From contig DASQAT010000029.1 in assembly GCA_035635555.1 (NCBI GenBank), positions 1 to 57,810 on the forward strand: DNA of 57,810 bases. Reading direction: 5' to 3'. The stretch comes from Candidatus Dormiibacterota bacterium. GTDB lineage: Bacteria > Acidobacteriota > Polarisedimenticolia > Gp22-AA2. The position numbers and the translations under genes were made by a program. This document shows positions 42,194 through 46,251 of this stretch, in pieces. The notes below the pieces were generated by a model. The model had not been told where the DNA came from. It made no database searches and saw only the letters and a program-made list of their open reading frames with translations. Each line of letters starts with the position of its first letter. The stretch's first letter is position 1.

Positions 42194-43327
42194 ATGGCTC
42201 ACAAGAAAAATCTTCTTTCGGGCCAGAGGATTTATCCCGATCCCATCCGCGGCGGCATGACCGTCGATCGGCTGATCGACGACACCTTCCTCGCCTACAA
42301 CGGCGGACGTCTGCAGAAGGCCTGCCGTCTGTTGACGGAGAAGATGCTCCAGGAGGACGTCACCGTCGGGCTGAGCCTCTCCGGCGCCCTGACGCCGGCC
42401 GGCGTCGGACGGTCGTGCATCATCCCGCTCATCCAGTCGGGATTCGTCGACTGGATCGCGTCGACGGGCGCGAACCTCTACCACGACACGCACTACGGGC
42501 TCGGCATGTCGCTGCACCGGGGCTCGCACGAGGTGGATGACACGCTCCTGCGGCGCGAGGGCGTCATCCGCATCTACGACGTCCTGTTCGACTACAACGT
42601 CCTGCTCGACACCGACAACTACCTGCGCGCCGTCATGGCGGAGAAGGCCTTCGACAAGGAGATGGGGACCGCCGAGCTGCACTACCTGCTCGGGAAGTAC
42701 CTGGCGGCCCGTGAGAAGGAGATCGGTGTCGTGGACACCTGCGTCCTCACGGTGGCGTACCGCGCCGGAGTCCCGTGCTACGTGTCGTCGCCCGGCGACT
42801 CCTCGATCGGCATGAACGTCGCCGAGCTGGCCATGCGGGGCGTCGGTCCGCGCATCGACGTGTCGCGGGACGTCAACGAGACCGCCGGCATCGTCTACGC
42901 GGCCAAGCAGCGGGAGGGCAAGAGCGGCGTGCTCATGCTGGGCGGCGGCTCCCCCAAGAATTTCGTCCTGCAGACCGAGCCGCAGATCCAGGAAATCCTC
43001 GGTCTCGCGGACCGCGGCCACGACTACTACATCCAGGTCACCGACGCCCGGCCGGACACCGGCGGCCTGTCGGGGGCGACCCCCGCGGAGGCGGTCTCCT
43101 GGGGAAAGGTCGACCCGGACAAGCTCACCGACTCGGTGGTGGTGTACGCCGACAGCACGATCGCCGTCCCGCTCATCGTCGCGTACGCCGTGTCGCGGGC
43201 CAAGCCGCGCCGGCTGAAGAGACTCTACGATCGACGCGACGACCTGGTCGAAAGGCTCAAGAAGGACTTCCTCGTCGAGCACGAGAGGCGCACGCGCGAG
43301 ACGGTGAAGGCCCAGCAGGGCCGCTGA
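42194..43327 (+). CDS. Deoxyhypusine synthase-like protein
   Basis: A 377-residue protein of the deoxyhypusine synthase (DHS) family. It has LSGALTPAGVGRSCIIPLIQSGFVDWIASTGANLYHDTHYGLG, which matches the DHS NAD-binding start, VPCYVSSPGDSSIGMNV, and LMLGGGSPKNFVLQTEP. The lysine K255 in the latter aligns with the active-site lysine of DHS. Bacteria lack eIF5A, the DHS target, and bacterial members are reported as homospermidine synthase-like enzymes or remain unassigned, so polyamine chemistry is the likely role. The start ATG 42194 is preceded by GGCGGAG. The 3' end overlaps convergent thiO by 71 nt. Confidence 0.88.
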   Translation: MAHKKNLLSGQRIYPDPIRGGMTVDRLIDDTFLAYNGGRLQKACRLLTEKMLQEDVTVGLSLSGALTPAGVGRSCIIPLIQSGFVDWIASTGANLYHDTHYGLGMSLHRGSHEVDDTLLRREGVIRIYDVLFDYNVLLDTDNYLRAVMAEKAFDKEMGTAELHYLLGKYLAAREKEIGVVDTCVLTVAYRAGVPCYVSSPGDSSIGMNVAELAMRGVGPRIDVSRDVNETAGIVYAAKQREGKSGVLMLGGGSPKNFVLQTEPQIQEILGLADRGHDYYIQVTDARPDTGGLSGATPAEAVSWGKVDPDKLTDSVVVYADSTIAVPLIVAYAVSRAKPRRLKRLYDRRDDLVERLKKDFLVEHERRTRETVKAQQGR

Positions 43328-44474
43328 CCGGCCCCGGCACCTCCGCGTCGACCACCCCCCCGTTCCAGTCCTGGAACCGACCTGGATCGAAGGGAGACAG
43401 ATCCATGCCGGGATCCTGGTCCGCGAGCAGTCGCGCGACGAGACGCGCGGTGACCGGCGCGAGCAGGATTCCATTGCGCAGGTGTCCGCAGGCGTGCAGG
43501 AGACCCGGGGCGGCCCGGCCGATGGCGGGAAGGCCGTCGGGAAGAGCGGGCCTCAGACCGGCCCAGGCAGAATGGAACGGCGCCGTCGCGAGCCCGGGGA
43601 CGAGGGCCAGGGCGCCGGCGCTGAGGTCCCTGAGAGCCGCTCCCGTCACGGACTTGTCGAAGCCCGCATCCTCCATCGTGCTGCCCGCCAGAACGCGCCC
43701 GTCGCGTCGCGGCACGAGATAGCAGTCGGGGCCGAAGATCGGGAAGACGGGAGCGGCGGCGGGACCGAGACAGACGATCTGGCCACGGACCGGGCGCAAC
43801 GGCAGCGGGGGATCGATCCCGGCGATCTCCGCCGACCATGCGCCGGCGGCGATCACGACGGCGCCGGCGCGCGCACGCCCGCCGCCGATGCCCACCCCGA
43901 CCACGCGGCCCTCTTCCACCAGGAGCCTGTCGGCGCGCGCATCCTCCTGCAGGCGGACCCCGAGACGCGAAGCCGAAAGCCTGAGACCCTCGACCAGGAC
44001 GACGTTGTCCACCGACAGGTCGCGCGGCAGGTACAGCGCCTCGCACCAGTCGGGATGGAGCGCCGGCTCCATGCGGCGCAGCGCCTCGCCGCCGATCCGC
44101 TCCGCGGGCAGACCGAGCGCCCGCTGGAAGGCGAAGCGTCGGTCCAGCTCCTCCGTCTCCCGGCCGGAGCGCGCGGCGACGAGAGTGCCGCGGCGCCACA
44201 GAGCGGGGTCCAGACCGCTCTCCTCCTCGACACCGGCCGCGAACTCGGGGAAGAGATCGCGGCTCGCGAGGCCAAGGGTGAAGAGAGGACCCGCGCGGTC
44301 CGCCTCGGCCTGCGGGCTGAGAAGCCCGGCCGCCGCGCCGCTGGCCTCTCCGCCGATCTTTCCCCGATCCAGGAGGCGCACGCGCAGGCCCAGGAGCGCC
44401 GCCTCGCGCGCGATCGAGAGACCGATGATCCCGCCGCCCACGACGAGGACGTCGTCGATCCGTTCCTGATCCAT
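43257..44474 (-). CDS. thiO: Glycine oxidase ThiO-like FAD amine oxidase
   Basis: A 405-residue D-amino-acid-oxidase family protein. The FAD site is VLVVGGGIIGLSIAREAALLGLRVRLLDRG. LSPQAEADRAGPLF, VRGQIVCLG and the C-terminal HLRNGILLAPVTARLVA are ThiO hallmarks. In thiamine synthesis ThiO makes the imine of glycine used for the thiazole ring. The 70 C-terminal nucleotides overlap the convergent DHS-like gene, and its tail (SRACASRARRGSPS) is low complexity, so the true functional end may be about residue 365. No other thi gene is near. Confidence 0.88.
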   Translation of the reverse strand: MDQERIDDVLVVGGGIIGLSIAREAALLGLRVRLLDRGKIGGEASGAAAGLLSPQAEADRAGPLFTLGLASRDLFPEFAAGVEEESGLDPALWRRGTLVAARSGRETEELDRRFAFQRALGLPAERIGGEALRRMEPALHPDWCEALYLPRDLSVDNVVLVEGLRLSASRLGVRLQEDARADRLLVEEGRVVGVGIGGGRARAGAVVIAAGAWSAEIAGIDPPLPLRPVRGQIVCLGPAAAPVFPIFGPDCYLVPRRDGRVLAGSTMEDAGFDKSVTGAALRDLSAGALALVPGLATAPFHSAWAGLRPALPDGLPAIGRAAPGLLHACGHLRNGILLAPVTARLVARLLADQDPGMDLSPFDPGRFQDWNGGVVDAEVPGPVSGPAGPSPSRACASRARRGSPS

Positions 44475-44550
44475 GTGAGAGGCAGTCTATCGCCCGCTCG
44501 CAGGTGCGTCAACGCGAGCACCGGGGCTGACCGAGCTATCCCGAGTCGGC

Positions 44551-44663
44551 GCGGCGGGCCTGCCGCCGGGTCGCGCCTCATGTCACTCGCGCGGGGTACT
44601 CAAGCCTTGCTCACGCGCATGGCGCGGCTCAAAATCGGCGCGACCCGGCGGCAGGCCCGCCGC
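44551..44663 (+). repeat. Palindromic element, copy 1
   Basis: Perfect 27-bp inverted repeat arms (44551-44577 and 44637-44663) enclose a 59-nt interior that starts TCATGT and ends GCGCGGCTCAAAATC. A second copy in opposite orientation lies 100 nt away. The interior ends are conserved between copies while the stems differ in sequence but remain base-paired. It lies in a 508-nt stretch without a gene. No transposase is present. Confidence 0.8.
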
Positions 44664-44762
44664 TCCCCATCCGGATCCCAGTGCTTCGCGGTGCTCACTT
44701 CGTGCACCCGCGGTCGTGCGAGTAGTCCTTTACGGGACGGTGAGGTCATCGTCAGCCCTGCG

Positions 44763-44887
44763 AGGCGGGCCGGAGCGCGCGGCAGGGGCGTGGCGATTTT
44801 GAGCCGCGCCATGCGCGCGACCGGGGCACCGCGTGCGCCGCGCGAGCGAACATGAGCCACGCCCCTGCCGCGCGCCCCGGCCCGCCT
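44763..44887 (-). repeat. Palindromic element, copy 2 (inverted)
   Basis: Inverted-repeat arms of 32 bp (44763-44794 and 44856-44887) with one mismatch enclose a 61-nt interior. Read on the minus strand the interior begins TCATGTTC and ends GGCGCGGCTCAAAATC, matching copy 1. A 24-bp block (44794-44817) is an exact reverse complement of 44614-44637 in copy 1. Short reading frames through both copies look like by-products of the repeat rather than genes. Confidence 0.8.
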
Positions 44888-44922
44888 GCGTGGAGGCGAA
44901 GATGCGGTCGTCCGGGAAGTGA

Positions 44923-44951
44923 TTGACTTCGCGGGAATCGGTTCCTAGAAT
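44923..44951 (+). promoter_or_regulatory. Promoter for the MFS transporter gene
   Basis: Plus strand: -35 TTGACT (44923-44928), 17-nt spacer, -10 TAGAAT (44946-44951), about 30 nt before the GTG start. Confidence 0.75.
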
Positions 44952-44982
44952 CGGGACCCCCTGCGTGGGAACCGGAGGAGTG

Positions 44983-46251
44983 GTGCTGGACAGGCGGGCG
45001 CTCGCGATCCTTTTCCTGACGCTCTTCCTGCTGATGCTGGGCGTGGGGATCATCATCCCCAACATCGTCTACCAGGCCGAGGCCAGCCACGCCACCGTGC
45101 CCCAGGCGACCTTTCTCTTCACCCTGTACTCCCTGATGCAGTTCCTGTTCGCGCCCGTGTGGGGACACCTCTCGGATCGCCTGGGGCGCAAGCCGATCCT
45201 GGTCGCCGGCCTGCTCGGGAACGCCGTCGGTCTGGCGCTGTTCGGGATCTCGTCCCGGCTGACGCTGCTGTACGTCGCGCGCGCTCTCTCGGGACTCATG
45301 TCGTCCGCGGCGCTGCCGACGGCCATGGCCTACGTCGCCGACGTCACGGACGAAAAGAGCCGCGGGCGCGGTATGGGTCTGATGGGAGCGGCCATGGGGC
45401 TGGGCTTCATATTCGGTCCCGGAATCGGCGGGTCGCTGTCTCGCTTCGGACACGGGGTCCCGTTTCTGGCGGCGTCGGGACTGAACCTCGTGACCTGCGT
45501 CCTCGCCGCGCTGCTTCTGCGCGAGAGTCTGGGGACGAGGCCGCGTCCGGCCGAGGGAGAGGACGTGGCCGCGATTCATCCGACGGAGGCGCCGGTCTCG
45601 TCGGAGGTGCCGTCGCCCGAGCCGCCGGTCATCCCCCGACCGTGGAGGGCCGTGGCGAGCCCGCTCCTGACGTTCTACCTCGTGGCCTTCTTCGTCACCT
45701 TCTCCATGGCCTCCCTCGAATCGATCTTTCCCTGGTTCATCCAGGATCGCTTCGGCTTCGGCGCGGGCGACATGGGCCTCATGTTCCTGTTCATGGGGAT
45801 CGCCGTCTTCCTGGTGCAGGGGTTCCTCCTCGGTCGCTGGATCGCCGCCTTCGGGGAGGAGAACGTCCTGGTGAGCGGGCTCCTGATCAACGCGCTCGGA
45901 TTCCTCTTGGTGATCGCCGCGAACGGCCGCGTTGCGCTCACCGCGGCGCTGGTCGTCGGCGGCGTGGGGAACCAGATCATGCGGCCGACCAACGCCTCCC
46001 TGATCAGCAAGAGAACGAAACGCGGTCAGGGGGCCGCGATCGGGATCATGGATTCGTTCGACTCGGCCGGCAGGATCCTCGGACCGATGGCCGCCGGGGC
46101 GCTGTACGGTCCCGGCCGCACCTACCCGTACATCGCGTCCGCGGCGATCATGGCCACGGTCGGTGCGGCGCTCTGGGCGAGGAAGACGGTGCGGCAGCGC
46201 GCGGCGGGCGGGGAGACCGCCGGGGGGGTCACTTCTTCGGACGCCCCTTGA
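44983..46251 (+). CDS. Major facilitator superfamily transporter
   Basis: A 422-residue, 12-helix inner-membrane transporter with the MFS loop-2 motif GHLSDRLGRKPILV after helix 2 and the helix-4 text ARALSGLMSSAALPTAMAYVAD. It resembles drug/tetracycline-efflux type members (DHA1). A hydrophilic central loop (GTRPRPAEGEDVAAIHPTEAPVSSEVPSPEPP) separates the two halves. The start is GTG 44983 or the adjacent GTG 44980, right after GGAGGA. The substrate is unknown. The 3' end overlaps the secreted-protein gene by 23 nt. Confidence 0.88.
   Translation: MLDRRALAILFLTLFLLMLGVGIIIPNIVYQAEASHATVPQATFLFTLYSLMQFLFAPVWGHLSDRLGRKPILVAGLLGNAVGLALFGISSRLTLLYVARALSGLMSSAALPTAMAYVADVTDEKSRGRGMGLMGAAMGLGFIFGPGIGGSLSRFGHGVPFLAASGLNLVTCVLAALLLRESLGTRPRPAEGEDVAAIHPTEAPVSSEVPSPEPPVIPRPWRAVASPLLTFYLVAFFVTFSMASLESIFPWFIQDRFGFGAGDMGLMFLFMGIAVFLVQGFLLGRWIAAFGEENVLVSGLLINALGFLLVIAANGRVALTAALVVGGVGNQIMRPTNASLISKRTKRGQGAAIGIMDSFDSAGRILGPMAAGALYGPGRTYPYIASAAIMATVGAALWARKTVRQRAAGGETAGGVTSSDAP

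Follow-up and report, generated by a model that had tools for sequence, protein, structure and literature searches.

Results

Two inverted hairpins lie between divergent genes

The window, which is the whole 57,810-nt stretch of DNA that was analysed, carries two inverted hairpins in the gap between a minus-strand thiO gene and a plus-strand MFS gene, and the predicted promoters of both genes point outward from the pair (Table 1). The left hairpin has perfect 27-bp arms (44551-44577 and 44637-44663) around a 59-nt interior (44578-44636), and its arms can be extended to 44548 and 44666 to give 30 bp with one mismatch. The right hairpin is inverted onto the minus strand, with 32-bp arms (44856-44887 and 44763-44794) around a 61-nt interior (44795-44855). 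These coordinates bear out the geometry described in the first-pass annotation, which had also reported one mismatch in the longer arms; the 32-bp arms stand, but their sole imperfect position is a G.T pair. The 24-nt block that had been called exactly complementary between the copies, CGCGCATGGCGCGGCTCAAAATCG, is indeed common to both without a single change. The pair is far from chance: the 19-nt core of this block occurs twice in the window against 0.01 occurrences expected, and folding gives the two hairpins z-scores of -9.5 and -8.2, which 0 of 200 shuffles equalled.

Table 1. Features of the hairpin locus, in window coordinates.
Feature	Position	Strand	Remark
Glycine-oxidase/ThiO-like flanking gene (thiO)	43257..44474	-	translation inspected, named without family search
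thiO -10 box TAGACT	44484..44489	-	spacing 17
thiO -35 box TTGACG	44507..44512	-	18 bp outward of left terminal repeat; family rule 12 bp
Left terminal-repeat remnant CCGAGCTATCCCGAGT	44531..44546	+	consensus CTGAGVYATCCCCRGT
Left hairpin, 5' arm	44548..44577	+	arm pairing
Left hairpin, interior	44578..44636	+	TCATGTCACTCGCGC ... CATGGCGCGGCTCAAAATC: 8x8 internal loop, inner stem, variable apical loop
Left hairpin, 3' arm	44637..44666	+	arm pairing
Variable spacer between the convergent hairpins	44667..44762	.	
Right hairpin, 3' arm (minus-strand reading)	44763..44794	-	
Right hairpin, interior	44795..44855	-	
Right hairpin, 5' arm	44856..44887	-	promoter-proximal side
MFS gene -35 box TTGACT	44923..44928	+	predicted from sequence
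MFS gene -10 box TAGAAT	44946..44951	+	spacing 17
MFS transporter-like flanking gene	44980..46251	+	named by inspection; start approximate

The hairpin forms a family confined to one genus

A covariance model built from 21 copies in the window's own genome found the hairpin in all five sequenced species of one genus, each of the 5/5 genomes holding 7 to about 45 copies and the genus about 110 in all. It found none in 55 further genomes from the phylum, three of which belong to the same family. The genus comprises Acidobacteria 'gp22' and groundwater relatives, from soil and groundwater habitats. The window's own genome (4.28 Mb) holds about 22-24 copies, many of them as convergent pairs; throughout the genus, the two interiors of a pair are separated by ~110-280 nt. 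A search for the core motif in 84,980 species returned nine exact matches outside the genus and one in viral contigs, none of them with hairpin arms. The further copies that the first-pass annotation had proposed to look for, in the same genome and in relatives, thus exist in number, and their stems differ; neither an absence of other copies nor a family with identical stems or unpaired arms was found.

Each hairpin is ~115 nt long. Its outer stem measures 26-30 bp and leads into an 8x8 internal loop (TCATGCTC / TCGAAATC), beyond which come the inner stem (GC(T)CGCGC / GCGCGGC) and a variable apical loop. Pairing exceeds 90% at most stem positions as far as pair 25 and has dropped to background once pairs 28-30 are reached, in 5/5 genomes; one near-loop position is often mismatched in one species.

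Several copies depart from this general plan. A second hairpin class in the relative G001 (L103:2966-3139, L108:3463-3634 and L111:840-1197) has the identical 8x8 internal loop with another inner stem and interior (TCATGCTCGGCGACGGG...CTTGCCTCGAAATC). At a tRNA-Met site of the same genome (L114:3060-3300), a pair looks deletion-fused, two left halves being joined into a new hairpin. Among copies of G002 (for example, L137 and L145), divergence is 14-55% in the ~22-nt apical loop and only about 8-20% in the element flanks; judging from these alignments, the loop seems to change faster than its surroundings. In G000, the end of contig C27 (L055:1562-1673) and the start of C28 (L056:99-209) have a common 5' flank and hairpin arms that do not pair 5' to 3', which is probably an assembly break or chimera at the repeat. 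Finally, the arms of several copies in the window's genome (window 44551-44570, L062 and L063) have a piece in common, GGCGGGCCTGCCGC, which suggests that arm sequence may sometimes be exchanged between copies.

The element has IS10-like terminal repeats and 9-bp target duplications

The ends of the element read CTGAGVYATCCCCRGT and resemble the end of IS10, CTGAGAGATCCCC, over the first 13 bases only: both begin with CTGAG and contain ATCCCC. This IS10 end sequence was also found beside an IS4-like transposase in plasmids, and the terminal repeats are in keeping with a MITE derived from the IS4 family (IS10 group). Insertions are flanked by 9-bp target duplications (CTTTGCCGG, CCCCGCCGC, TTATCTGCC/TCATCTGCC, TGCGTCTCG and CCCAGAAAT), which are exact in L187, L120, L288 and L297 and partly decayed in others. 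One relative carries two near-identical ~540-bp copies in unrelated flanks, and copies in another align from end to end and then diverge abruptly. Variants include one of 327 bp without the hairpin and one of 82 bp with almost nothing inside.

The 9-bp target duplication and the non-autonomous copies bounded by repeats are traits common to this family and to IS10/Tn10, other IS4-family elements and their derived MITEs. Unlike IS10, the present elements have hairpins at their ends and came without a transposase: a PF01609 search of the genus and family returned two genes, one each in G004 and G006 and both without ends that match, and no long (autonomous) element lay between matching ends in these genomes, which are draft MAGs and may miss the parent. 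IS10 has the target consensus NGCTNAGCN, a trait of IS10 and not of all IS4-family elements. It was not seen in the 9-bp targets here, which have no consensus apart from G+C; in its place stands a site fixed relative to a promoter.

Element ends are phased to predicted promoters

Promoters were predicted from sequence only. TTG stands at offset 12 from the terminal repeat in 27 of 66 non-redundant ends, against 0.6 expected (P about 1e-37), while the neighbouring offsets 11, 13 and 14 have it in 2, 1 and 2 ends. Offset 12 equals the 9-bp duplication plus 3 bp, followed by TTGAC, which puts the target at about -48 to -40. Measured from the hairpin arm, outward TTGAC motifs peak at 31-32 bp; full promoters point outward in 24 cases and inward in none, and the phased promoters are found on that side of the hairpin which carries the terminal repeat. 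Phasing of fewer than all ends is expected, since an element as a rule has a promoter at just one of its ends. The relative G007 (genus g4), which is without the g1-type hairpin, has the same phasing in 14 of 26 terminal repeats, ends that are also part of the 66, and is an independent confirmation of the insertion rule. Its 26 ends (L288-L307) belong to the same MITE family and enclose other internal inverted repeats (for example, L292:892-1057).

No copy overlaps a predicted gene, though 87% is coding, as predicted by a home-made caller that misses some genes, the window thiO among them. Copies in convergent gaps number zero, but such gaps are rare at this size (2 of 55 controls), and the zero carries no weight. 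At the window locus, the promoter TTGACT-N17-TAGAAT follows the right hairpin, and the first-pass annotation had correctly placed the pair just upstream of it. This MFS promoter is conserved in 5/5 species, including G001 and G002, in which the site is empty; since these two relatives keep the promoter without the element, the phased promoters belong to the host. Together, these data show that insertions of the family fall upstream of predicted sigma70-type promoters with almost base-exact precision, and promoter position, a passing remark in the earlier description, is the central feature of the family.

The transposase would be directed to such sites by promoter-bound RNA polymerase or sigma, or by recognising the -35 hexamer. 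A transposase that needs no RNA polymerase and itself reads TTGAC at a set distance from where it cuts is possible if rather doubtful, and would be a variant of the explanation that we favour below. It is consistent with the fifth base, which is C in 22 of the 27 ends with TTG at offset 12. The variants TTTACC and TTGAAC at or next to the phased position argue against it, as does a -10 box (TA...T) at 16-18 bp in 20 of these 27 ends, compared with 3% in the background, although the latter is a weak point, as an intergenic TTGAC usually is a promoter. With a -10 box present at the right spacing, guidance by polymerase or sigma would be the likelier of the two.

Hairpins persist where terminal repeats have decayed

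The left repeat of the window copy (44531-44546) departs from the original pattern at two positions, and a right terminal repeat was not recognisable for this copy. The thiO promoter (TTGACG-N17-TAGACT) is at offset 18 in the window and, by inspection, at 12 or 13 in the relative G003, and a decayed remnant lies at the orthologous spot in G004. The orthologous site in G003 (L274:950-1400, equivalent to window 44500-44920) holds a different long inverted-repeat element with a similar terminal start, GCGAGCTCTCCCGGGT. Taken together, the imperfect left repeat, the shifted thiO offset, the G004 remnant and the different element in G003 indicate that the window holds an old copy of a non-autonomous transposon, which is probably immobile.

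Decay of the ends extends to the whole of the window's genome, in which the terminal repeats are mostly at background (median 6 mismatches in 16, shuffled mean 6.8) and the 19-nt core has 0-2 mismatches, and to G004, in which no terminal repeat rises above background and the core has 0-1; as the hairpins were found via the core, its conservation is possibly exaggerated. The same intergenic sites are occupied by hairpins in several species, a few at nearly the same base. Stems at syntenic sites resembled each other no more than those elsewhere did, and these comparisons do not separate vertical retention from reinsertion or homogenisation. All in all, we see moderate support for a hairpin that is itself useful, or maintains itself, as DNA. 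It may act as a protein-bound cruciform or single-strand hairpin, or as a supercoil or insulator element between the upstream gene and the promoter.

Stem pairing is maintained at the DNA level

In an alignment of 100 copies, both partners vary at 27 of 33 pairs, with 587 such cells against 166 in shuffled alignments, and the signal is lost when the partner is slid by one base, in agreement with the earlier claim that the stems diverge yet stay paired. Across 82 hairpins and 26 pairs, we counted 2012 Watson-Crick pairs, 21 G.U, 37 A.C and 62 others; on the transcribed strand at tandem sites, there were 13 G.U and 14 A.C. Where pairing is selected in RNA, one expects G.U to be tolerated and A.C to be excluded. 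As G.U did not exceed A.C, whether pooled or on the transcribed strand, pairing is maintained at the DNA level, and the stem sequence drifts almost freely while that pairing is kept.

The arms may owe their identity to selection that favours a DNA hairpin, to template switching that copies one arm from the other, or to both. If the covariation arose only from template switching between arms (quasipalindrome correction), the hairpin would be functionless and persist by chance; this reading, which we think unlikely though worth weighing, competes with the function part of our explanation and not with its MITE or targeting part. The missing G.U bias suits it, and so do coupled changes already seen between copies whose flanks differ by about 8-15%, a suggestive comparison of close paralogs that fits arm copying. 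In template switching one arm copies the other, and homogenisation of the arms is a known outcome (PMC8604942). Two observations speak against it: arm pairing stops abruptly at 26-30 bp in every genome even though the adjacent terminal-repeat sequence is partly palindromic, and the unpaired core has 0-2 of 19 positions changed where the terminal repeats are at background. Template-switch homogenised inverted repeats, or quasipalindromes (PMC8604942, PMC7202029), are alike in having arms kept identical at the DNA level; they differ from the present family in its conserved internal-loop motif, fixed arm length and defined genomic position.

The first-pass annotation had read the pattern as selection for structure, as in a structured RNA or a hairpin-mobilised element. 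A cis-regulatory leader, terminator or small RNA with its stem under selection would account for the strong covariation, the very stable fold and the many copies close behind the stop codon of the upstream gene, but it is very improbable. Besides the G.U and A.C counts, both orientations occur, with the members of a pair mutually inverted; the phased promoters point away, which leaves the hairpin upstream of the start site of the downstream gene; no T-run follows the stem; and an Rfam search of the hairpins gave no matches above threshold, only chance-level microRNA and snoRNA scores.

Discussion

We consider it likely that the family is a hairpin-bearing, IS10-like MITE with promoter-phased insertion, guided by polymerase or by the -35 element, and with a hairpin that acts as DNA. 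The unit is bounded by the IS10-like terminal repeats, with the hairpin just inside one or both ends, and would be moved in trans by a putative transposase that makes the 9-bp target duplications. Survival offers another account of the phasing, in which selection purged the insertions at all other places in promoter regions. Insertions near promoters are clearly under selection, and copies are absent from genes; survival should, however, permit many positions further upstream, and the one-base precision (27 ends at offset 12 against 2, 1 and 2 nearby), which recurs in a second genus whose elements have a different interior, makes it still less credible than a structured RNA.

Least probable of all is a REP/BIME/REPIN-type element moved by a Y1 (RAYT) transposase, which the paired, inverted, intergenic palindromes of the family recall, as in BIMEs, along with being mobile yet kept: the present units are far longer, with terminal repeats and a ~115-nt hairpin of conserved interior and variable stem, and a search for Y1_Tnp in five genomes of the genus found none while control genomes were positive. 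To our knowledge, Y1 transposition does not produce target duplications, and those found here contradict mobilisation of this type. Of the earlier term 'hairpin-mobilised element', mobility holds, given the 540-bp copies, the 9-bp duplications and the empty site; as the means of movement, a conventional terminal-repeat transposon is a better explanation than the hairpin.

The stems offer a natural case of DNA-level covariation, a signal usually taken as proof of a functional RNA, and comparing G.U with A.C is a simple way to separate RNA-level from DNA-level pairing. Going beyond the MITE reading, we tentatively propose, at somewhat less than even confidence, a bacterial DNA transposon family for which RNA polymerase or sigma is the guide to sigma70 promoters, and whose end hairpin may have turned into a host DNA element upstream of promoters, free in stem sequence and held in pairing. 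The usual description of bacterial transposons is that they avoid promoters or disrupt them, and we found no description of a promoter-phased bacterial MITE in the open-access papers searched, a set that is incomplete. Yeast Ty1/Ty3 retrotransposons insert at a fixed position relative to RNA polymerase III promoters. The present family has the same fixed relation to a promoter; unlike Ty1/Ty3, it is bacterial, has DNA transposon ends and sits at sigma70-type promoters, and its guidance by polymerase is presumed. If the proposal is true, promoter complexes would serve this family as landing marks, a safe-harbour strategy known from the yeast retrotransposons.
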